NCBI RefSeq assembly: GCF_004114375.1
Contig: NZ_CP034692.1
Span: forward strand, 1,922,001 to 1,986,000
Length of the DNA: 64,000 nt
Reading direction: 5' to 3'
Origin: Halorubrum sp. BOL3-1
GTDB lineage: Archaea > Halobacteriota > Halobacteria > Halobacteriales > Haloferacaceae
Both the position numbers and the translations under genes were made by a program. Below the pieces are notes generated by a model, which did no database searches, had not been told where the DNA came from, and saw nothing but the letters and a program-made list of their open reading frames with translations. Shown in pieces: positions 1,564-63,062 of the stretch (within the stretch, counting starts at the first letter, position 1; each line of letters begins with the position of its first letter).

Positions 1564-3795
1564 CTACTGTTCGTCGGTGTACTGCCGGTCGTATCCGAAC
1601 GGCAGGTACGAGTCGCCGCCGCCCTCGTAGAACTTCCCGAAGAACTCCACGTACTCGAGACGAACCCCCTGAATGCCGGCGGCCGTGATGCCGAGCAAGA
1701 GCACGACGACGTGACCGATCACCGCGACCACGATGGCCGCGACGAGGCCGAGAACGCCGATGAGACCGATAGCGCCCGGGTCGAAGGCGGTCGACATGCC
1801 GGCGAAGACCAGTTCCTCGCTGCCGGTCTCTCGGACGTGAGCGAGGTGGTCGGCGGTGAAGATGAAGTGGAAGCTCCCCTCGCCGCCCTCGTCGATGTAC
1901 GCGCCGAACGCGAGCAGATTGACGGCCAGCGCCATCCCGCCCTTCGCGAGCAGCACCGCCATGATCCGGGCGTACGAGACGACGTTGACGATGGGCTCGA
2001 GCACTTCCGCAAGTTCCACCGGTTCACCGATGGCGATCAGCGCGACGCCAGCGACGGCGCCGACGATGCCGGCGATGCCGACGACGGCCGGGAACCCGGA
2101 GAACGAAAGCGCGCCGAGCGTGATCACCGAGACGGAGTCGAAGAGGAAGTCCGGCTTGACCTGCAGGACGTGCCGGCTGAAGATCCAGATCCACACGCCG
2201 TTGAGAATCAGCAGCCACGAGCCGGACTCGTACACCGCGTGTTTGAGGTCGTGAACCTGGAAGTTCTTCACGAACGAGAGGACGTAGCCAGTGTTCAGGT
2301 GAACGAGCCCGAAGACGACGCTGAGCACCAGCCACGTGAGCGCCCACTCGGTGTCGGCCGGGGACAGCCCCTTCCCGACCTCCCAGTGAAGGCCGAAGAG
2401 CTGGTACGCGTGGTAGCCGAAGACGTCGATCCCGTAGTAGATGCCGAACAGCACGGTGAACAGCCCGGCCCAGATCGCGACCGCACCCATCTCGCGGAGC
2501 GCGCCGTCGTAGTTGGCGTAGAGGTAGTAACCGATAGCGGCGTACAGCACGCCGTATCCGACGTCCCCAATCATGAACCCGAACATCAGCGGGAACGTGA
2601 GGAACACGAGCAGCGTCGGGTCGAACTCCGAGTACTTCGGCTGCCCGAAGGCCTGCACGAGCAGCTCGAACGGGCCGGCCGCGCTCCCGTTGTCTTGGAC
2701 GACCGGCGGGTCGTCGGACCCGTGTGCCGCGTGACCGCCGTCGGTCGCGACCGCCTCTTCCGTCTCCGCGCTCGCGGGGTCGCTCCCGTCGTCGACCGAC
2801 GCCGACTCCGCGCCGCCGGTCCCGCCGTCGACCGGTTCGGCGTGGTGGTCGCCGTCGGGAGTGAACGAGGCGCGTTCGAGCTCCTCGACCTCAACGTGGT
2901 CGCCCACCGCGTCGACGACCGCCGCCTCGAAGTCGGGGTAGCTCTCGGTCGGCACCCATCCCTCGGCGACGAAGGCGTTCTCCGTCGTCGCGAACGAGAG
3001 CGGCGCCTCCTTCTTTTCGGCCTCGACGGTGAGCTGCTCTTCGGCGCGTAGCAGGAAGCCGGCCGCCTCCCCTTTCACCGATTCCAGCTCGTTCTCGACG
3101 TCGTCGAGCTCGTCGCGGAGGTCGGCCCGCTCGGCTTCGAGCTCCGCGACGTACTCCTTCGGGCCCGCGTCCGCGTCCGGCACGTCGAGCAGCGCGATGT
3201 CGACGCCGACGAGCGCGTCCTGAACGGCGCCCTCCGCGTCGGCGTCGGTCGGCTTCGCGACGACCGCGAGCACGTCGCCGCCGACGAAGACGTCGAAGGC
3301 GCCTATCGTCTCGGCGTCTTCGAGCGCCGTCTCGACGAGACCGGGCCTGGCCTCGCCGACGACGACCTCGACCGAGTCGTAGCCGCGCAGGTACTCCAAG
3401 TCGATGCCCAGCTCCGCGAACGGCTCCATCCGGTCGATCTCTTCCTGCCGGTCGCGGATCGCGTCCCGGAGATCGTCGCGCTCGTCGTTGAGGTCGTTGA
3501 CCCGCCCGCGGACCCGGCCAAGCTCCGCGACCAACTCGTCGTCGTCCAGCGACCGAGCGACCTCAGCGTCGTCCGCGTCGACATCGAGGATGCTCTCAAG
3601 TGACCGGACCGTCACGAGCCGCTCGTTAACGGTCTCGGCGCCGTCGAGGGACGTCCCGGGTTCGAACCCCTCGTACCGCTCGTCGTAGTCGGTGACGTGC
3701 AGGGAGTGGTGGGCGTACGCCGCCTCGATGACGTCGTCGATGACGCGCTTCGAGCCCGTCACCGACACCCGGCTCATCCGCTCAGGCCTGAGCAT
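1564..3795 (-). CDS. atpI: A-type ATP synthase subunit I (a-subunit)
   Basis: Stator membrane subunit that forms the proton path against the K ring. The product is about 743 aa. The N-terminal cytoplasmic half is charged and partly coiled coil. There is a low-complexity, Ser/Asp/Glu-rich linker near the middle. About seven or eight membrane helices fill the C-terminal half, including the arginine-bearing region around 'EPIVNVVSYARIMAVLLAKG'. The reading frame is open far upstream, but the protein begins at ATG 3795 (MLRPERMSRVSVTGSK). This overlaps the atpH stop by 14 nt; a second Met at 3777 is the alternative start. Confidence 0.95.
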   Translation of the reverse strand: MLRPERMSRVSVTGSKRVIDDVIEAAYAHHSLHVTDYDERYEGFEPGTSLDGAETVNERLVTVRSLESILDVDADDAEVARSLDDDELVAELGRVRGRVNDLNDERDDLRDAIRDRQEEIDRMEPFAELGIDLEYLRGYDSVEVVVGEARPGLVETALEDAETIGAFDVFVGGDVLAVVAKPTDADAEGAVQDALVGVDIALLDVPDADAGPKEYVAELEAERADLRDELDDVENELESVKGEAAGFLLRAEEQLTVEAEKKEAPLSFATTENAFVAEGWVPTESYPDFEAAVVDAVGDHVEVEELERASFTPDGDHHAEPVDGGTGGAESASVDDGSDPASAETEEAVATDGGHAAHGSDDPPVVQDNGSAAGPFELLVQAFGQPKYSEFDPTLLVFLTFPLMFGFMIGDVGYGVLYAAIGYYLYANYDGALREMGAVAIWAGLFTVLFGIYYGIDVFGYHAYQLFGLHWEVGKGLSPADTEWALTWLVLSVVFGLVHLNTGYVLSFVKNFQVHDLKHAVYESGSWLLILNGVWIWIFSRHVLQVKPDFLFDSVSVITLGALSFSGFPAVVGIAGIVGAVAGVALIAIGEPVELAEVLEPIVNVVSYARIMAVLLAKGGMALAVNLLAFGAYIDEGGEGSFHFIFTADHLAHVRETGSEELVFAGMSTAFDPGAIGLIGVLGLVAAIVVAVIGHVVVLLLGITAAGIQGVRLEYVEFFGKFYEGGGDSYLPFGYDRQYTDEQ

Positions 3796-4138
3796 CCACC
3801 GCCTCCTCGGCCTGATCGTGGACCGCTGCCTCAAACCGTTCGACGGCGTAGTCGACGGCCGATTCCAGCCGGTCGCGGGCCTCGCGTTCGAGCTCGTCGC
3901 GGTCGGAACGCCCCGATTCGAGGATCTCCTCGCGCCGCTCGTCGATCTCCTCGCGGGCCGTTTCGAGCCGCTCTTGGGCCTCGGACTCCGCCTCCTCCTC
4001 GGCCTCAACGCGGATCTCGTCCGCGCGCTCTCGAGCCTCAGCGAGGCGCTCTTCGGCGTCCGATTCCGCGTCAGCGATGATCTCGTCCGCCTCCCGTTCG
4101 GCCTCCTTGATCGAGTTGAGCACCTCTGGTCTCGCCAT
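3782..4138 (-). CDS. atpH: A-type ATP synthase subunit H
   Basis: Small peripheral-stalk subunit that forms a coiled coil with subunit E. The 118-aa product (MARPEVLNSIKEAEREADEI onwards) is almost entirely an Ala/Glu/Arg-rich amphipathic helix, which fits the family. It is the first gene of the minus-strand ATPase operon. Its 3' end overlaps the atpI start, and a TATA box lies about 36 bp upstream. Confidence 0.9.
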   Translation of the reverse strand: MARPEVLNSIKEAEREADEIIADAESDAEERLAEARERADEIRVEAEEEAESEAQERLETAREEIDERREEILESGRSDRDELEREARDRLESAVDYAVERFEAAVHDQAEEAVDAQA

Positions 4139-4325: not shown

Positions 4326-5921
4326 ATGGCAACGGTGTATGCGGTCGCGTCGGCGAAAGGTGGGGTCGGAAAGACCACCACGACCGCCGCGCTGGCGACG
4401 ATCCTGGCGGAGTCGGGCGCCGACGTCGTCGCGGTCGACGCCGACCTCGGGATGGCGAACCTCGCGGGCGCCGTCGGGGTGACGCCCGGTGAGACCACCC
4501 TTCACGACGTCCTCGCCGGCGAGGCGGAGCCCGGGGCGGCGGTCCGCGAGGGACCGTCCGGACTCCGGGTCGTTCCGGGGGCGACCGACCTCGACGCGTA
4601 CGCGGCCGCGAACCCGTCGGGACTCCGCCGGGTCGTCGAGGCGTTCGACGACGCCGAGTACGTGTTCGTCGACGCGGGCGCGGGGCTGTCGCACGACTCC
4701 ACGCTCCCGCTCGCGATCGCGGACGAGACGCTGCTCGTCTCGACGCCGGAGCGGAGCGCGCTCGGTGACACCGAGAAGACGCGACAGCTGACCGAACGCC
4801 TCGGCGGGACGGTCGCGGGCGCCGCGATCACCCGCGTGACCGACGACGCCGACGAGGTCGCCACGGCTCTGCTCGACGCCCCCGTCCTCGATCGAATCCC
4901 GGACGACGAGGCCGTGGCTCGGGCCGCGGCGGCGAACCGCCCCCTGCTGGCCGTCGCGCCCGACGCGCCGGCGACGCGGGCGTACCGCGACCTGGCCCGG
5001 GCGCTGACCGGGACGGACATCAGCGGGACGGGACTCGACGGATCCGCGGCCGACGCGGCGGGCGGCGGCGGAGCCGACGACGGCGAGGGAAGCGGGGGTG
5101 AACCGGACGCGACCGAAAGCGAACCGGACGCGACCGAAAGCGAACCGGACGCGACCGAAAGCGAACCGGACGCGACCGAAAGCGAACCGGCTGGCGACGC
5201 CGAGATCGTCGACGACGAGCCGCAAACGGCGGCTGACGACGGCGACGACGCGGAACGGACATCGGAGGGCGAGACCGGAGCGGCGACCCCCGACGACACC
5301 GCTGACCGACCGGCCGAGGACGACGACGAGATCATCGCCGCGGACCCCGACGCGACCGGGGTGGCGGGGCCGAGCGACGGCGACGACATCATCGTCGCGA
5401 GCGAGGGCGAAGCCGGCGGCGGGCCGGCGGACGACGGAGGCGACGCCGACGCAGATGACGACGCCGACGCAGACGACGACGGTGACGCCGACGCGGACGC
5501 CGGAGGCGACGAGGAGGGGACAGACGCCGAAGGCGAGGTCGACGACCGGAGAGATACCGGCGAGGAAGACGTCGAGACCGATCACGACGGCGTGACGGAC
5601 GACGGCGAGCCGGAAACGGCGACCGAAGACGGTGGCGCGGAACCGGACGCCATCCCCGACGCGGACGAGACCGCGAGAGCGGCGGCGGAGCGGACCGAGT
5701 CCGACAGCGACATCGACGACGAACTGGCCGGCAGCATCCCGTTCCGCGACGACGACACCGGGACGATGAGCACCGTGCCATCGGAGGGAGATGCGGACGA
5801 CGGCGACGCCGGCGGCGAGAGCGCGGACGGCGAGACCACCGAGGAGTCGTCCGCGGACGCCGGCGACGGAGGCGATGAAAAAAACGACGGCGGGTTCTTC
5901 AGTCGGCTGCTCGGTCGGTGA
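4326..5921 (+). CDS. MinD/ParA-family ATPase with long acidic C-terminal tail
   Basis: A deviant-Walker P-loop ATPase of the MinD/ParA class, a family that positions cellular structures on membranes or DNA. Residues 1-235 form the ATPase domain: deviant Walker A KGGVGKTTTT (residues 11-20), switch-like 'VDADLGMANL', and Walker B-like 'YVFVDAGAG'. From about residue 240 the protein is low complexity and extremely acidic (Asp/Glu/Ala/Gly), and includes four exact 7-residue repeats (EPDATES). It ends in DGGFFSRLLGR, a short basic amphipathic tip like the membrane-targeting end of bacterial MinD. At 531 aa it is twice the usual length. Haloferax MinD4 is also a MinD protein with a long C-terminal extension, but I cannot establish orthology. 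It is divergent from the ATPase operon. Confidence 0.85.
   Translation: MATVYAVASAKGGVGKTTTTAALATILAESGADVVAVDADLGMANLAGAVGVTPGETTLHDVLAGEAEPGAAVREGPSGLRVVPGATDLDAYAAANPSGLRRVVEAFDDAEYVFVDAGAGLSHDSTLPLAIADETLLVSTPERSALGDTEKTRQLTERLGGTVAGAAITRVTDDADEVATALLDAPVLDRIPDDEAVARAAAANRPLLAVAPDAPATRAYRDLARALTGTDISGTGLDGSAADAAGGGGADDGEGSGGEPDATESEPDATESEPDATESEPDATESEPAGDAEIVDDEPQTAADDGDDAERTSEGETGAATPDDTADRPAEDDDEIIAADPDATGVAGPSDGDDIIVASEGEAGGGPADDGGDADADDDADADDDGDADADAGGDEEGTDAEGEVDDRRDTGEEDVETDHDGVTDDGEPETATEDGGAEPDAIPDADETARAAAERTESDSDIDDELAGSIPFRDDDTGTMSTVPSEGDADDGDAGGESADGETTEESSADAGDGGDEKNDGGFFSRLLGR
5100..5183 (+). repeat. Four exact 21-bp tandem repeats (EPDATES codons)
   Basis: The unit GAACCGGACGCGACCGAAAGC is repeated four times without a mismatch at 5100-5120, 5121-5141, 5142-5162 and 5163-5183. 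A fifth partial copy follows (GAACCG). It is in frame with the MinD-like gene (residues 259-286), so copy number can change without a frameshift. Confidence 0.97.
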
Positions 5922-6008: not shown

Positions 6009-6980
6009 TCAGGCCTCGGAGGGTGACCGGGCGCGGTCGCGGATCAGCTCGCGGATCTTCTCGGGGTCGGTGACATCCGCGAGTTCCTCGCAGGAGACGA
6101 GAGCGGTACCGTCGACCGACTCGCGCTTCTCGTCCTCCTCGGTGAAGTACACCGAGCGGGTCTGTGCCACCTCGCCGATGGAGGACATGATCCGGGCGCG
6201 CTTCTCGGCCGCGGCGGTGAACGTCGAGTGGCCGGTGAGCACGCGCGCCGCCGAGCTGTCCTCGTCCTCGGAGACCGCCTTGAACGGGGCTCGAGCGGTC
6301 GGGTGAACCGTGAAGCCGGCGCTCGTGAGCACGTGGAGAACGTGTTCGTCGTCGGGGTCGGCCGCGGGCGCGGACGGGGTCGGCTCCGCGTCGCGGACGC
6401 CGTCCGCGCCCTCCAGGACGTCGACCGGGCTGGAGAACGGCTGGTCGAACAGCTCCTCCAGCCGGATCGCCACCTCGATAGAGGCGTTCATCCCGTCCTC
6501 GTACTTCGAGACGGTGCGGCGGGAGACGCCGAGTTCGGTCGCGAGGCGGCCGAGCGACCAGCCGCGCTCCTCGCGCTCGTCGGCCAGCAGGTCGCCGTCG
6601 AGGCTGACGTACAGCCCGCCGGGGGCCGCGTAGATGAGCGGGGGCATCCCCTCGACGAACAGGTCGTAGGCGGTGTCGGGGTTGATCACCGGCACGCCGT
6701 GTCTGAAGTAGACGACGCCGGGTTTCAACTCCTCGTCGCGGGTACGGACCCCGATCACCATCGGCGTTCCCCTGAGGTACTCGCCGAGCCGACGCATCTC
6801 CGCGCCGGTCTCCGCGTCGAGCGCGTCGACGTTGCCGAGGATCTTCAGGAGCAGGAGGTCCTCGTCGCGCCGGGCCGCCACGTCGAAGCTCTTGGGCCGG
6901 ACCGCACACCGGTCGCTGACGAGGAAGCCCGCGTCCTCCAGCATCGCGGTGACGTTCCCGATGAGCGCAGTCCGGGACAT
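6009..6980 (-). CDS. XRE-type HTH transcriptional regulator (archaeal conserved family)
   Basis: A 323-aa regulator starting [19 protein letters not shown]. It has an N-terminal domain of about 120 aa resembling a restriction-endonuclease-like or regulatory fold of unknown function. A Cro/C1-type helix-turn-helix follows around residues 130-185 ([20 protein letters not shown] then [12 protein letters not shown]). A C-terminal domain of about 110 aa is present. This layout matches a conserved archaeal family annotated as putative HTH-type regulators. The frame stays open far upstream, but that part is antisense to tiaS; the ATG at 6980 lies about 25 bp after an AT-rich TATATA element. It converges with the MinD-like gene. 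Confidence 0.85.
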
Positions 6981-50968: not shown

Positions 50969-53900
50969 ATGACTCAGTCGGGGCTGTCGGACTTCTCGTC
51001 GACCGGAGCGACGGACGACGGGACGGACGACGGCACGCAAACCGAACGATCTGACCTAGCCGCACAGGAGGCGGCCGTCGTCGCCGGCGGCGGGCGGGGT
51101 CGCGTCAGCGACGTCGTCGACGTCGACGAGGCGAAATTCTCGGACTCGACGGGCACCGTCGAGCTGATAATCACCCAGATCGACTACGCCGTCGAGGGAT
51201 ACGGGAGCGACGAGTACCCCGTCGTCCACGTGTTCGGTCGTCGTCCGGTCGAAGGCGGCGACGACGAGGTCGAACACCTCCGCGTACTGGGCGTCGAACC
51301 GTACTTCTACGTTCCCACGGCCGACCTCGACCGCGACCCCGTCGAGGAGTACGGCGTGGTGATCGGGACCCGCGAGGAGAACTCCGAGGGAGAGCCGTAC
51401 GAGAGCATCCGCGGCGAACCCCTCACCCGGGTCGTCACGCGCACGCCCCGCGATGTGGGGAACATCCGCGACGACTTCGCGACGAGCTTCGAGGCGGACA
51501 TTCTCTTCCCGAACCGCTTTTTGATCGACAACGGGCTCAACGGCGGGATCCGCGTCGAGGAGCGCCGGCTCGACGACGGCGACGGGACGATCCAGGTCCA
51601 CGAGGGACACCTCGAACCCGCCGGGGTCGACGCCGAGATGCGGGTGAACACCTTCGACATCGAGGTCGACGACCGCCGCGGCTTCCCCGAGGACGGTGAA
51701 GAGCCGATCATCTGTCTCACCAGCCACGACTCCTACGACGACGAGTACGTCGTCTGGCTGTTCGACGCGCCCGAGGCCGAGGTCCCGTCGCCGGAGGACC
51801 TCCCTGACTACGAGGGGATCGTCGCGGACGAGGAGATCGACTTCGAGGTCCGGACCTTCGAGGAGGAGGCCGCGATGCTCGACGCGTTCGTCGAGTACCT
51901 CGAAGGGACCGACCCCGACCTCCTGACCGGGTGGAACTTCGAGGACTTCGACATGCCGTACGTCCTCGACCGACTGGAGGTGCTCGACGACGGGAGCCAG
52001 TACGACCTCTCGATCGAGCGGCTCTCCCGCATCGGCGAGGTGTGGCGCTCCGGCTGGGGCGGTCCGGACGTCAAGGGCCGAGTCGTCTTCGACCTGCTGT
52101 ACGCCTACAAGCGCACGATGTTCACGGAGCTGGAGTCGTACCGCCTCGACGCGGTTGGCGAGCGCGAGCTCGGCGTCGGCAAGGAGCGGTACACGGGCGA
52201 TATCGGCGATCTCTGGGAGCAGGACCCCGAGCGGCTCTTGGAGTACAGCATCCGCGACGTGGAGCTGTGCGTCGAGATCGACCGGAAACAGGACGTGATC
52301 GCCTTCTGGGACGAGGTGCGGACGTTCGTCGGCTGTAAGATCGAGGACGCGCCGACGCCGGGCGACACCGTCGACATGTACGTCCTCCACAAGGCGTTCG
52401 GCAAGTTCGCGCTCCCGACGAAGGGCCAGCAGGAGTCAGAGGATTTCGAAGGCGGCGCCGTCTTCGAGCCGATCACGGGGGTCAAGGAGATGGTGACGGT
52501 ACAAGACTTGAAATCGTTGTACCCCATGTGTATGGTGACGATCAACGCCGGCCCGGAGACGAAGGTCGACCCCGCGGAGTACGACGACGAGACGTACGTC
52601 GCGCCCAACGGGACCCACTTCCGGAAGGAGCCGGACGGCATCATGCGCGAGATGGTCGACGAACTCCTCTCCGAGCGCGAGGAGAAGAAGACGCTCCGGA
52701 ACGACCACAACCCCGGCACCGAGCCGTACGAGCAGTACGACCGACAGCAGGGAGCTGTCAAGGTTATTATGAACTGCTTCACGCCGGACACGGAGGTGCT
52801 GACGCCCGCCGGCGTGCGGTCGATCACGGACCTCGACGTCGGCGACGAGGTGTACTCGCTCGATCCGGACACCGAGGAGATGGAAGTCAAGACCGTCGAG
52901 GAGACGCACGCGTACCCCGACTACCGGGGCGAACTCGTCGACATCGAGACCTCGAAGATGGATTTCCGGGTCACGCCGAACCACCGGATGCTGGTCCGGA
53001 AAAACGAGACGAACGGGATCACCGAGGACGGCTACGACTTCGTCGAGGCCGGAAACCTCGACCGCGCGACGAACTACGAGCTCCCGCACGACTGGGACGA
53101 TCCGGTCGGAGAGCGGGTCGACGAGGTGGATCTCACGGAACTGATCGACGGCGAGTACGAGGTGTGGGTCCGACCGAGCGTCCACGGCCACACGTTCACC
53201 GCCGAACTCGGCTGGACGCCGCGCCGCGTGCCGAAGGCGGACGTCGGGCAGACCGGCTACGTCTTCACCGCCGAGGAGTTCGAGGAACACCGCGAGTACG
53301 TCGAGTCGGTGTGCGAGACGAGCTTTGTCCACCGCGAATCCGGGAGAAAGTGGATCCCGCGGACCTACGACGGCGACGACTTCCTCGATCTCTTGGCGTG
53401 GTACGTCACCGAGGGCAACGTGTACACCTCCGAGGAGAAGACGTTCGGAGAGAACCACCGCGGCTCCGCGACGACGGTGAAGATCGCACAGAACGCCATC
53501 GCGGACGGCGGCGGTCACCACGCGAGCATCGGCGACCTGCTGGACAGAATGGGGTTCGACCCCTACGTCGATGAGCGCGCCTACCAGTTCACCTCGAAGC
53601 TTCTCGGAGACCTGCTCCGAGAAATCTGCGGCGGCGACAGTTTCGAGAAACGGATTCCGGACCTCGTGTTCGACGCGAGTCGAACACAGAAACGGCAGTT
53701 CCTGGAGACGCTGATCGACGGCGACGGGGACCGGCAGTCCGGTTCGTGGCGGTACACGACCTCCAGTGATCGACTCCGTGACGACGTACTCCGACTGTGT
53801 GCGCACTTGGGGCTGACGGCGAGCTACAACCGCGACAGCGGGAGCTGGCGGATCTACGTGACGGAAGACGCGAAGAACACGCTGCGGATGCATCGGAGTG

Positions 53901-54979
53901 GAGTGCGGAGCGAGGCAGAAGACGGAGTCTACTGCGTGACGGTCGCAGACAACCACACGCTGCTCGCGGGGCGGAACGGGAAGTTCCAATTCGTCGGTCA
54001 ATCACTATACGGCGTGACGGGATGGGATCGATTCCGTCTTTACGATAAAGAGGGCGCAGCAGCCGTCACGGCGACAGGTCGTGAGGTCATCGACTTCACC
54101 GAGGAGGCCGCGAATGAGATCGATTATGAAGTTGCTTATGGTGACACGGACTCGGTTATGTTATCTTTGTCTGATATGTCGGAAAAAGAAGCAATCGAGA
54201 CCTCCTTCGACATTCAAGAGCACATCAACGAGCGGTACGACGACTTCGCGCGAGACGAACTGAACGCCGACTCGCACCGCTTCCAGATCGAGTTCGAGAA
54301 GCTCTACCGGCGCTTCTTCCAGGCGGGCAAAAAGAAGCGGTACGCCGGTCACATCGTCTGGAAGGAGGGGAAAGACGTCGACGACATCGACATCACCGGC
54401 TTCGAGTACAAGCGCTCGGACATCGCGGGCATCACCAAGGAGGTCCAGCAGAACGTCATCGAAACGATCGTGATGGGCGACGACATCGACGAGGACATGG
54501 AGGAGGTGAAGGCGTACCTCGTGGACGTGATCGCGGAGGTCCTCGACGGCGAGATCGACGTGGAGGAGATCGGGATCCCCGGCGGGATCGGCAAGAAGCT
54601 CGACGCCTACGAGACGCCGACCGCGCAGGTCCGCGGGGCGAAGTACGCCAACCGCATGCTCGGGACCAACTTCGGGAGCGGGTCGAAGCCGAAGCGGCTC
54701 TACATCGAGAAGGTCCACCCCGACTTCTGGGCGCAGATGGAAGACGAAGAGGGACTCGACCCGCAGCGAGACCACCTCTACGGGGAGTTCAAACGCGATC
54801 CGGACGTGATCTGCTTCGAGTACGCGGACCAGGTACCCGAAGAGTTCGAGGTCGACTGGGAGAAGATGCTGGACAAGACGCTGAAAGGGCCGATAGAGCG
54901 CGTGATCGAGGCGCTCGGCATGTCGTGGGAGGAGGTCAAGACCGGTCAAGAGCAGACCGGTCTCGGCTCGTTTATGTGA
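50969..54979 (+). CDS. polB: Family B DNA polymerase, interrupted in frame by an intein
   Basis: Replicative archaeal polymerase with 3'-5' exonuclease. Total precursor is 1,336 codons; the spliced enzyme would be 927 aa. Exonuclease motifs are 'NTFDIEVDDRRG' (DIE at 230-232), 'LTGWNFEDFDMPYVLDR' and 'YSIRDVELC'. Polymerase motifs are 'DLKSLYP' (513-519), 'KVIMN|SLYGVTGW' (split by the intein at N602/C603) and 'YGDTDS' (D1059, D1061). The N-terminal 50 residues are acidic and disordered. The ATG at 50969 follows a T-rich promoter-like stretch. Splicing is essential for a working active site. Confidence 0.95.
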   Translation: MTQSGLSDFSSTGATDDGTDDGTQTERSDLAAQEAAVVAGGGRGRVSDVVDVDEAKFSDSTGTVELIITQIDYAVEGYGSDEYPVVHVFGRRPVEGGDDEVEHLRVLGVEPYFYVPTADLDRDPVEEYGVVIGTREENSEGEPYESIRGEPLTRVVTRTPRDVGNIRDDFATSFEADILFPNRFLIDNGLNGGIRVEERRLDDGDGTIQVHEGHLEPAGVDAEMRVNTFDIEVDDRRGFPEDGEEPIICLTSHDSYDDEYVVWLFDAPEAEVPSPEDLPDYEGIVADEEIDFEVRTFEEEAAMLDAFVEYLEGTDPDLLTGWNFEDFDMPYVLDRLEVLDDGSQYDLSIERLSRIGEVWRSGWGGPDVKGRVVFDLLYAYKRTMFTELESYRLDAVGERELGVGKERYTGDIGDLWEQDPERLLEYSIRDVELCVEIDRKQDVIAFWDEVRTFVGCKIEDAPTPGDTVDMYVLHKAFGKFALPTKGQQESEDFEGGAVFEPITGVKEMVTVQDLKSLYPMCMVTINAGPETKVDPAEYDDETYVAPNGTHFRKEPDGIMREMVDELLSEREEKKTLRNDHNPGTEPYEQYDRQQGAVKVIMNCFTPDTEVLTPAGVRSITDLDVGDEVYSLDPDTEEMEVKTVEETHAYPDYRGELVDIETSKMDFRVTPNHRMLVRKNETNGITEDGYDFVEAGNLDRATNYELPHDWDDPVGERVDEVDLTELIDGEYEVWVRPSVHGHTFTAELGWTPRRVPKADVGQTGYVFTAEEFEEHREYVESVCETSFVHRESGRKWIPRTYDGDDFLDLLAWYVTEGNVYTSEEKTFGENHRGSATTVKIAQNAIADGGGHHASIGDLLDRMGFDPYVDERAYQFTSKLLGDLLREICGGDSFEKRIPDLVFDASRTQKRQFLETLIDGDGDRQSGSWRYTTSSDRLRDDVLRLCAHLGLTASYNRDSGSWRIYVTEDAKNTLRMHRSGVRSEAEDGVYCVTVADNHTLLAGRNGKFQFVGQSLYGVTGWDRFRLYDKEGAAAVTATGREVIDFTEEAANEIDYEVAYGDTDSVMLSLSDMSEKEAIETSFDIQEHINERYDDFARDELNADSHRFQIEFEKLYRRFFQAGKKKRYAGHIVWKEGKDVDDIDITGFEYKRSDIAGITKEVQQNVIETIVMGDDIDEDMEEVKAYLVDVIAEVLDGEIDVEEIGIPGGIGKKLDAYETPTAQVRGAKYANRMLGTNFGSGSKPKRLYIEKVHPDFWAQMEDEEGLDPQRDHLYGEFKRDPDVICFEYADQVPEEFEVDWEKMLDKTLKGPIERVIEALGMSWEEVKTGQEQTGLGSFM
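52775..54001 (+). mobile_element. Intein with LAGLIDADG homing endonuclease in polB
   Basis: 409 codons (residues 603-1011) of intein. Block A is 'CFTPDTEVLTPAGVRSITDL' with Cys1. Block B is 'KMDFRVTPNHRMLVR' (TxxH). DOD endonuclease motifs are 'LLAWYVTEGNVYTSE' and 'FLETLIDGDGDRQSG', both with acidic residues, so nuclease activity is plausible. The splice-end block is 'VYCVTVADNHTLLAGRNGKF' then QFVGQ before Ser. The last residue is Gln, not Asn, and the residue before it is Gly, not His. The +1 residue is Ser. Confidence 0.93.
54002..54220 (+). other. AT-rich, codon-shifted tract in polB after the intein
   Basis: Codons here are unlike the rest of the window: TCA CTA, CGT CTT, GAT AAA, AAT, GAT TAT GAA GTT GCT TAT GGT, TTA TCT TTG TCT GAT, GAA AAA GAA GCA, ATT CAA. 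The tract encodes the polymerase motif YGDTDS and returns to usual GC-rich codons at about 54220. A few such codons (GCT, GTT ATT) also precede the intein at 52751-52774. Confidence 0.85.
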
Positions 54980-59897: not shown

Positions 59898-61148
59898 TCA
59901 GACGCCCGTCGAGTAGCGCAGGATACCGGCGATACCGCCGAACGCGTCGAGCAGCTGTTCGCCCTTTTCGAAGTCCGTGGAGATGAACTTCGTGTCCGTC
60001 CCGCGCTGTTCCGCGATGGCCATCAGGTGTTCGATGACATCCTCGCGCTCGTCGACGTCGGCCGCCTCGCCGCACTCCGCACACTCGTGGTCGGGGGTCG
60101 AGTGCCGCGAGTCGATTACCTCGTACTCCTCGTGGCCGTTGGGGCACTCGTAGACGACGACGTCGGAGCGGAGGTCCTCGGAGATGAGCAGCCGGTCGAC
60201 CGATCCCATGATCAGGTTCCGGCGGGTCGGTTCGAACCCGTAAGTCGCCTCCTCGCCGGTGTTGAGCTTCTCGAAGAACTCCTCCATGTTGCGTTTGTCC
60301 TCGACGATCTCCTGATCGGCGAGCACCTCGCTGGCGTTGTCGACGAGGTCCTTCAGTCCGGACTCGTCGGTGTAGGCCACGTCGAACTTGCCGAGCACCT
60401 TGTCCTGTAGCTCGTGGTGGAGGTAGTCGCCGTCGAGGAACTCGTCTTTCGTCGGCGACGGCCCGCCGACGAGGATGCCGTCGAGCTCGTGTCGCTTGTC
60501 GACGAAGAGGTCGTCACCCATTCCGGCGACCTCCTGATAGAAGTTGTCGATGGCTTCCAAGCGCAGTCGGGCGAACCGCTGTGCGGACTGTCCCCCTTTC
60601 CGCTGTTTGCCGGGGACGAGCGAGGAGGCGGACTTGACCGGCTCGACGCGCTTGCCCTTCAGCCAGCCGACGTTGGCCTCGCGTCGGTCGAGGACGATGA
60701 GCCCGAACAGCCCGGAGTCCTCCAGCATATGTTCGAGCGGCTCGGTGAGGAACGCGGAGTCGCAGTGGTACCGGAACGACTCCACCGGCTGCGGCGGCGA
60801 CTCCAGCGTCCGGGTGACCATGTCGGTCTGTCCGCCGCCGGCGTTGATAGCGCCCGAGAAGATCACGATCCCGTTCTCCGGCGGGTAGGTGTCGTAGTAG
60901 CGCAGTCGGTCCTTGATCGACGTCAGCGCGTCCTGGACGGCGGTCCGCGTCTGCTTGGATTTGATGTTCGACGCCTCGCTGTGCTCTTGAGTGACGTGGG
61001 CCACCACGTCGGAGACCTGTTTGTCGTCGGGGATGTAGATGGTGACGAGCTGGGTGCCGGAGCCCTCGAAGTCTTTGAGTTCCTCGATGACCTTACGGAA
61101 CTCGTACTTCCGGCGGTCCGCGTTCGCCTCTTGTGCGTCGCTACTCAT
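59898..61148 (-). CDS. prf1: Peptide chain release factor aRF1
   Basis: Archaeal class-1 release factor recognising all three stop codons. The 416-aa length fits. Domain 1 contains the NIKS codon-recognition motif in 'EASNIKSKQTRTAVQDAL' (about residues 60-77). Domain 2 has the catalytic GGQ in 'GKQRKGGQSAQRFARLRLEA' (about 182). Domain 3 ends with a minidomain having a zinc-like 'CPNGHEEYEVIDSRH' and 'CAEC'. The gene is convergent with the DtxR-type gene (26-bp gap). Confidence 0.96.
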   Translation of the reverse strand: MSSDAQEANADRRKYEFRKVIEELKDFEGSGTQLVTIYIPDDKQVSDVVAHVTQEHSEASNIKSKQTRTAVQDALTSIKDRLRYYDTYPPENGIVIFSGAINAGGGQTDMVTRTLESPPQPVESFRYHCDSAFLTEPLEHMLEDSGLFGLIVLDRREANVGWLKGKRVEPVKSASSLVPGKQRKGGQSAQRFARLRLEAIDNFYQEVAGMGDDLFVDKRHELDGILVGGPSPTKDEFLDGDYLHHELQDKVLGKFDVAYTDESGLKDLVDNASEVLADQEIVEDKRNMEEFFEKLNTGEEATYGFEPTRRNLIMGSVDRLLISEDLRSDVVVYECPNGHEEYEVIDSRHSTPDHECAECGEAADVDEREDVIEHLMAIAEQRGTDTKFISTDFEKGEQLLDAFGGIAGILRYSTGV

Positions 61149-61280
61149 TGGTTTGAATACGGTCGCGTGCGTGTAAGTAAGCTTTGACCTGTCGATACGG
61201 CCGGAAATATCGGTCTCGGCCGCGTCCGACGACGGTCCGCTCGGAGCGCGGCGACAGGCGCTCGCGTCTCTCGGTCCGGC

Positions 61281-63062
61281 CTACATCGACTCCGGCGCCT
61301 CGACGCCCAGCACGTCGAGCGCGTTCGCCATCGTGTGTTTCGCGGCCGCGACGACAGCGAGCCGGGCGTCGCGCAGGTCGTCGGTCTCGGCGGTCACGAC
61401 CGGGCACTCGCGGTAGAAGGCGTTGTACGCGTCCGCGAACTCGCGCGTGAACGTCGCAATCGTGTGCGGCTCCAGGTCGTCCGCGGCGGCCTCGATCGCC
61501 GCGGGGAACCGCGCGACCTCGCGGAGGAGGTCGCGGGCCGCGGCGGTTTCGAGGGCGCTCGCGTCCACGTCGAGGGCGTCTCCCGGTTCGGGGACGTCGA
61601 CCCCCTGCTCGGCCGCCTCGTCGAGGATTCCGGCGCAGCGCGCGTGGACGTACTGGACGAACGGGGCGGACTGCGCCTCGAAGTCGAGCGCGTCCTCCCA
61701 CTCGAAGGTGATCGCCTTCGCGGGCTGTTTCGAGACGATGTCGTACCGGACCGCGCCGATCCCGACCTGGTGGGCGATGCGCTCGACATCTTCCTCGGTA
61801 AGGTCGTCGCCGCGGATGCGGTCGTTCATCCGGCTTTCGACCGCCTCGCGGGCGCGGTCGATCGCCTCGTCGAGGAGGTCGTCGAGCATCACGCCGGTCC
61901 CTTTCCGGGTGGACATCTTCCCGTCGGGGAGGTTGACGTACGAGTAGATGACGTGGCCGAGGGGGTCGGTGTCGTTACCGAGGAGTTCGAGCGTCGCGCC
62001 GAGCTGGTCGGCCTGGAGCTTGTGGTCCTCGCCGAGGACGGTGACGGCGCGGTCGTAGTTCTCGAACTTCCACTCGTGGTGCGCCAGGTCGCGGGTCGTG
62101 TAGAGACCCGTGCCGTCCGAGCGCAGGAAGACGAGGTTCTTGTCGATCCCCCACTCGTCGAGTTCCAGCTGCCAGGCGTCCTCCTCGTAGACGGCCTGGT
62201 CGGTCTCCTTGAGCCGGGCGGCGACGTCGTCGGTCGACCCGTCGCGCATGAACCGGGTCTCCTTGACGAACTCGTCGAACTCCGCCGGGAGTCGGGCGAG
62301 ACAGTCTTTCATACCGCCGAGGACGGTGTCGACGACCTCCCCGACGCGCTCGTAGGTGTCCTCGTCGCCGGCCTCCAGTCCCTGGAGGATCGACTGGATC
62401 TCGGATTCGGCCGCCTCGACGGCCGCCTCGTCGGCCTCCTCTAAGAACGCGTTCCCCTTCCGGTAGTAGCGCACGAGGTCGTACTCGACGCGGTCACGGG
62501 CGGGGTCGTTCTCTAGGTCCGACTCGTCGAACCGCTCGTAGGCCCACGTGAACACCGCCATCTGCCGGCCGGCGTCGTTGACGTAGTAGTGGCGGTCGAC
62601 GTCGTAGCCGGCGTACTCCAGGAGGTTCGCGACCGCGTCACCGACGATGGGGTTGCGCGCGCGGCCGACGTGGACCGGGCCGGTCGGGTTCGCGCTGGTG
62701 TGCTCGACGACGACCGAGGTATCGCGGTCCGGGAGCACGCCGTAGTCGGCGTCGGGGGCGGCCGCGTCGAGGGTGTCCGCGAGGTAGCGCTCGTTCGCGT
62801 GGAAGTTGACGTACGGGCCGGCTGTGTCGACCGATTCGACGTAGTCGGTCCCGCTCACGTCGACCGCGTCGGCAACCGTTTCCGCGACGTTCGGCGGCGC
62901 GTCACCGACCTCGCCCGCGAGCCGGAAGGCGACGCTGGAGGCGAGCGTCGCGTCCATGTCGTCGGGCGGGCGTTCGATGCCGAGGTCGTCGGTCGGGAGG
63001 TTGAGCGAGGCGAGCGCGTCCGCGAGCGCCGGCTCGACCTCCGACCGGAACTGCCTGAACAT
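61281..63062 (-). CDS. argS: Arginyl-tRNA synthetase
   Basis: Class I aminoacyl-tRNA synthetase. The 593-aa protein has the ArgRS-specific N-terminal Add-1 domain (residues 1-105). The HIGH-like motif is '[20 protein letters not shown]' (about 120-139). The KMSK motif is '[17 protein letters not shown]' (about residue 386). The C-terminal DALR anticodon-binding domain starts near '[18 protein letters not shown]'. ATG 63062 gives the homology start ([13 protein letters not shown]). No introns or frameshifts are seen. Confidence 0.95.

Follow-up and report, generated by a model that had tools for sequence, protein, structure and literature searches.

Judged by its phylogenetic placement and gene order, the protein encoded close to the start of the window (the whole 64,000-nucleotide stretch of Halorubrum sp. 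BOL3-1 DNA that was analyzed) is the Halorubrum ortholog of Haloferax MinD4 (HVO_0322) itself and not merely an analog of it. MinD4 is an extensively studied ATPase by which haloarchaea position their swimming apparatus. We consider it probable that the ortholog described here is a membrane-cycling ATPase that works through a conserved C-terminal tip, and that its tail serves as a length-tolerant tether carrying docking motifs. The first-pass annotation had likened the protein to Haloferax MinD4 on account of a long extension; the extension is indeed common to both, but clade and gene order replace the analogy by orthology.

The gene and its ATPase domain

The gene and the features of its N-terminal part are as follows.

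4326..5921, + strand: minD4 ortholog, 531 amino acids (open reading frame, TIGR01969 match, tree, and gene neighborhood)
4326..5021, + strand: MinD/ParA ATPase domain, residues 1 to 232 (TIGR01969 and Pfam, AlphaFold2 [AF2], and fold matches to PDB entries 1ion, 1g3q, and 1hyq)
4353..4376, + strand: deviant Walker A motif AKGGVGKT, residues 10 to 17, with K11 and K16 (55-sequence alignment)

The coordinates, strand, length, and terminal residues (DGGFFSRLLGR) of this reading frame were exactly as first annotated. A frameshift or other artifact as the source of the C-terminal end was ruled out, since the same end is kept in relatives. Residues 5 to 231 match the archaeal MinD model TIGR01969 (minD_arch) with an E value of 1.3e-59 and 201.4 bits, narrowly missing the cutoff of 201.75, and the bacterial MinD model gives 86.1 bits, far below its cutoff of 212.9. 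In an alignment of 55 sequences, the signature lysine of the deviant Walker A motif, K11, is invariant and K16 is conserved in at least 90%, as in ParA/MinD ATPases. AF2 run on a 55-sequence alignment predicted the ATPase fold confidently up to approximately residue 232 and superseded an earlier run on 13 sequences, in which the ATPase was modeled poorly (mean pLDDT of 49). The ATPase domain had initially been said to end by about residue 240; the domain is present, but TIGR01969 (residues 5 to 231) and AF2 (approximately residue 232) place its boundary nearer residue 230. A Foldseek search with the AF2 model returned three archaeal MinD structures at the top (1ion, 1g3q, and 1hyq), and the closest solved chains by sequence are likewise the MinD proteins of Archaeoglobus and Pyrococcus. 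These closest solved folds have no long tail, since their chains comprise 237 to 263 residues.

Orthology with MinD4

In a tree of 110 ATPase domains, in which three other Haloferax species stood in for H. volcanii, all 47 rows of the family, including the window protein and the Haloferax sequences, formed one branch with an SH-aLRT support of 91. Rows outside the family possibly include a few paralogs, and locus L210 falls outside the clade. Two further groups of MinD-type paralogs, present in Halorubrum, Haloferax, and other haloarchaea, were also placed outside the clade, and their members are without the tip motif. A single match of at least 187 bits, with the next match down at 171 bits, was obtained in 70 of the 79 family genomes, a few of which may be doubled under different handles (L021 and L140 share an identical protein end). 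The best 12 matches in named genomes belonged to 11 Halorubrum genomes and one metagenome-assembled genome of the Halobacteriales.

The link to the published gene tag was made through gene order. In Haloferax sp. Q22, genes named by sequence likeness follow each other as atpB, a gene for a 658-amino-acid protein, atpD, a gene for a 127-amino-acid protein, aRF1, minD, and argS. Because atpB is HVO_0317 in a table of PMC3828320, counting along the Q22 order, used here in place of the H. volcanii sequence, assigns HVO_0322 to the Haloferax gene of the family, and HVO_0322 is the tag given to MinD4 in passages of PMC11621097 and PMC11588486. The window protein thus resembles H. volcanii MinD4 in that it shares a clade with the proteins of three Haloferax species, an ancestral gene neighborhood, and a long C-terminal tail; in the window protein, 302 residues follow the aligned domain. 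It differs in that the Halorubrum gene now lies beside atpH and in the sequence and length of the tail; the tip reads GFFSRLLGR in the window and GFFSRFLG or GFLSRFLG in the three Haloferax species.

Relocation of the gene in Halorubrum

Three genes in the window bear on the history of the locus.

3782..4138, - strand: atpH, divergent neighbor found solely in Halorubrum and its close genera (identified by gene order and a weak Pfam match)
59898..61148, - strand: aRF1, the usual upstream neighbor of minD4 in other haloarchaea (gene order comparison)
61281..63062, - strand: argS, the usual downstream neighbor of minD4, which here adjoins aRF1 (gene order comparison)

Both argS and aRF1 flank the gene in 62 of 107 loci, some of which are cut by contig ends, and atpD is also near in 45 of these 62. 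Halorubrum departs from this arrangement: in the window, as at all 13 of the other Halorubrum-group loci, atpH lies divergent to the gene on one side and an HTH gene lies downstream. The latter (HTH_3; 6009-6980, - strand) is convergent with minD4 and is 91 to 96% identical over the match in the 13 other loci, and its Haloferax relative is located about 15 kb away from minD4. The position between argS and aRF1 is only supporting evidence, and a gene that has moved is still an ortholog. The aRF1-argS pair (59898-63062) lies in the same window, 55 kb from the present minD4 site, and as the two genes are side by side, the usual minD4 site is empty. An intermediate state was found in a related genus (locus L122, genus g14), where argS is on one flank and atpH on the other; this arrangement is compatible with an inversion as the first step of the relocation.

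Two further genes of the window were recorded in passing. A family B DNA polymerase of 1,336 amino acids (50969-54979) contains an intein-like segment with Hint, LAGLIDADG, and intein-splicing Pfam matches, and a protein encoded at 12579-13469 matches the GIDE E3 ubiquitin ligase family with an E value of 8e-7.

An acidic tail with conserved islands

The region between the ATPase domain and the tip contains the following features.

5022..5888, + strand: acidic tail of low model confidence, probably disordered, residues 233 to 521 (composition and AF2 pLDDT)
5100..5190, + strand: 21-bp tandem repeat in 4.3 perfect copies, encoding EPDATES repeats (repeat search)
5322..5405, + strand: tail island, residues 333 to 360, DEIIAADPDATG..DGDDIIVASE (DEDIIVADPDA..DGDDIIVASE) (Halorubrum-group alignment)
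5646..5675, + strand: tail island, residues ~441 to 450, DAIPDADETA, well conserved only in some members of the genus (alignment; diverged in the L016-L019 group)
5709..5786, + strand: tail island, residues 462 to 487, DIDDELAGSIPFRDDDTGTMSTVPSE, with the core [AS][IV]PF (Halorubrum-group alignment)

A tail of about 290 residues, acidic and mostly unstructured, had been described from the sequence, and both its composition (38% D+E, 2.8% K+R, and 6.7% FILMVWY in residues 236 to 520) and the AF2 pLDDT, mostly below 50, agree with this description. Its characterization as a flexible polyanion survives in part: the tail is acidic and of low model confidence, but it is not plain or featureless, as it contains short conserved islands, among which DDELAGSIPFRDD stands out. 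The Halorubrum-group sequences share at least three islands that rise above the variable background, including SDAIPDADETAR (confined to some members of the genus) and DIDDELAGSIPFRDDDTGTMNTVLSE, and in the island at residues 333 to 360, 12 of the 28 gap-free columns are invariant in 13 sequences. The motif [ASVID][IV]PF is present in 39 of 73 tails, distributed over 12 of 27 genus labels (two of which, Hfx and g28, possibly denote one genus), compared with a mean of 0.30 in composition-preserving shuffles, and is missing from the other 34. Cores of the IPF type were also seen in other families (AIPFSDRE and AVPFQDE), and comparison by eye revealed no clear relation between the IPF motif and the presence of CheW. 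None of the 12 further sequences in the Halorubrum alignment shows the EPDATES repeat; tail length changes partly through tandem repeats of this kind.

Tails rich in acidic residues are a frequent feature of haloarchaeal proteins. One competing explanation is that the tail provides halophilic solubility and has no specific role, leaving the ATPase, and possibly the tip, as the only parts that count. The abundance of D and E, the low complexity, the tandem repeats, and a family linker length of 32 to 490 residues are what such a tail would show; the islands kept across the 13 Halorubrum-group sequences and the excess of [ASVID][IV]PF over shuffles argue against it. Furthermore, passages of PMC11621097 report that truncation of the extended C-terminal tail of MinD4 impairs motility, although such a deletion might also take away the tip. 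We therefore doubt that the tail acts in solubility only.

A conserved C-terminal tip

5889..5918, + strand: tip GGFFSRLLGR, residues 522 to 531, putative membrane-targeting sequence (conservation and AF2 helix)

The first-pass annotation had proposed to check whether the tip is conserved among orthologs and the tail is not. This is the pattern found: of 73 distinct family orthologs, 72 end in G[FLI][FLIV][SGRK][RKW][FLI][FL] plus at most four additional residues, while the linker before it ranges from 32 to 490 residues, and the sole exception ends in a close variant, GSFFGRLFRSS. The 73 orthologs consist of the window protein, those of 12 loci (L009-L020), those fetched from 57 family genomes (out of 70 that have an ortholog, one of the remaining 13 being the window's own genome and 12 having been left out), and three Haloferax proteins. 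These loci yielded 1,167 distinct gene calls, in which the pattern gave 66 matches, all to MinD orthologs and none to other proteins (61 flagged automatically as MinD and 5 that represent the same MinD open reading frames called from an upstream start). The 13 Halorubrum-group sequences agree at nine of the 10 tip positions, and since synonymous codons vary at six of these nine, with two or more codons each, selection seems a better explanation of the conservation than recent common descent. At the DNA level, a tip pattern searched in four genomes showed no enrichment over a reversed control; among the 30 matches with loci (of 42 listed), a C-terminal position and an acidic tail came together in three MinD4 orthologs alone, and the other C-terminal matches ended 84- and 321-codon frames without an acidic tail (two cases) or 21-codon frames (two cases).

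Several observations suggest that the tip is a putative membrane anchor. (i) It resembles the end of Escherichia coli MinD, EEKKGFLKRLFGG, as had been claimed for bacterial MinD ends in general; passages of PMC6803595 place the amphipathic membrane-targeting sequence of E. coli MinD there. (ii) Both AF2 runs modeled the tip as helical, with low to middling confidence (residues 524 to 530, with a pLDDT locally up to 63, in the 55-sequence run). (iii) The bacterial helix directly follows the ATPase domain, as initially stated, and in 27 of 28 bacterial relatives the last 12 residues, at that place, include four or more of FILMVW. The helical-wheel check proposed initially has no power here, judged by the hydrophobic moment: tips compared with their own shuffles reached a median percentile of 0.58, and the true anchor of E. 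coli reached 0.27. The likeness to E. coli MinD comprises fold, deviant Walker A motif, and terminal tip, whereas the stretch that follows the aligned domain measures 22 residues in E. coli (17 to 64 in the 28 bacterial relatives) and 302 in the window protein. It measures 26 to 27 residues in three rows of families f9 and f11 and 41 to 53 in f4.

Outside the family, 30 of 40 proteins, sampled as one stretch each from 40 of the 72 genomes with a match, keep at least four FILMVW residues in the last 12, a count that is unspecific when used alone, since 5 of 16 paralog ends also reach four. In one haloarchaeal family, f7, the tip has been lost and is thus dispensable, because the f7 match, which falls in the same region of the tree, ends in a different conserved sequence, VSSAITEAESD; all six f7 proteins fetched (L186, L187, L189, L190, L192, and L195) end in this way instead of in the tip, with SSAITEAE common to all.

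FlhG/FleN proteins, MinD-like ATPases that govern the number and position of flagella, position motility machinery and are not known to carry a long acidic tail. They are similar to the window protein in fold and, according to passages of PMC6803595, in possessing a C-terminal anchor, and they differ in that their solved chains have 284 to 307 residues and their partners are those of the bacterial flagellum. The same passages describe the anchor of the FlhG monomer as sitting in a hydrophobic groove, which would suit a tip that is a protein-binding peptide and docks on a polar landmark, an array protein, or a groove of the ATPase. Its extreme conservation and the glycine ahead of the motif would also suit a docking peptide. 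We regard this alternative as unlikely, given the resemblance to the established E. coli MinD anchor and the free interchange of F, L, and I at each hydrophobic position, as membrane insertion would predict. Among the passages returned by our literature search, none presents the MinD4 tip as an anchor; the search stopped short of Nussbaum et al. (2020), which possibly contains such a description.

Co-occurrence with CheW and archaellin

According to passages of PMC11621097 and PMC11588486, MinD4 of H. volcanii oscillates and forms polar caps, and ArlD and CheW mislocate in its absence. In our data, CheW was found in 54 of the 70 family genomes with an ortholog and in 0 of the 9 without (Fisher P = 1e-5; P = 8e-4 for genomes at least 90% complete), but there are fewer independent events than these P values suggest, because the nine ortholog absences fall in four genera; CheW absences also cluster in few genera, and some genomes are incomplete. 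Archaellin was detected in 61 of the 70 genomes with an ortholog versus 4 of the 9 without. Sixteen genomes have an ortholog and no CheW, and all 14 proteins fetched from these keep the tip, which persists also in genomes without an archaellin match. Motility is therefore not the whole story, and MinD4 may have cargo other than the components of chemotaxis and the archaellum. A bacterial-type Min division-site system, which a MinD-family ATPase with a MinD-like tip might suggest, is highly improbable, as MinE and MinC, the partners of E. coli MinD, were each found in 0 of 30 genomes searched (E. coli was found in the control), and passages of PMC11588486 and PMC11621097 report unaffected FtsZ positioning in H. 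volcanii without all four minD genes.

A proposed tethered positioning ATPase

We propose that this ParA/MinD-type ATPase most likely goes on and off the membrane by means of its C-terminal tip, which would form a short membrane-inserting helix like the anchors of bacterial MinD and FlhG. ATP-driven dimerization would bring two weak tips together, and the long acidic tail would be a flexible tether from the ATPase to the anchor that tolerates changes in length, so that the ATPase could act away from the membrane while still attached. The motifs [AS][IV]PF and DDIIVA probably dock a partner or cargo. Among the cargo of the ATPase are the chemotaxis and archaellum machineries. Simple ATP-gated membrane binding fits poorly with the literature, because oscillation of MinD4 is reported in passages of PMC11621097 to be independent of Walker A or B; the Walker motifs are needed there for cap formation. 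A more specific version, offered tentatively and with greater doubt, is that the ATPase and the membrane tip are fixed, the disordered line between them is free in length, and the IPF and IIVA motifs recruit a partner that replaces MinE or a polar landmark. Holding the tip at the end of a 300-residue tether would make membrane contact partly independent of the ATPase cycle, which could account for Walker-independent oscillation.

Both MinD4 and the overall role of its tail are already known; the tail motifs are new, and the tip is well supported and testable. The comparison presented here divides the tail into a tip, conserved islands, and a variable spacer, three testable pieces that truncation of the whole tail lumps together, and it points to residues that are worth changing in the MinD4 tail.
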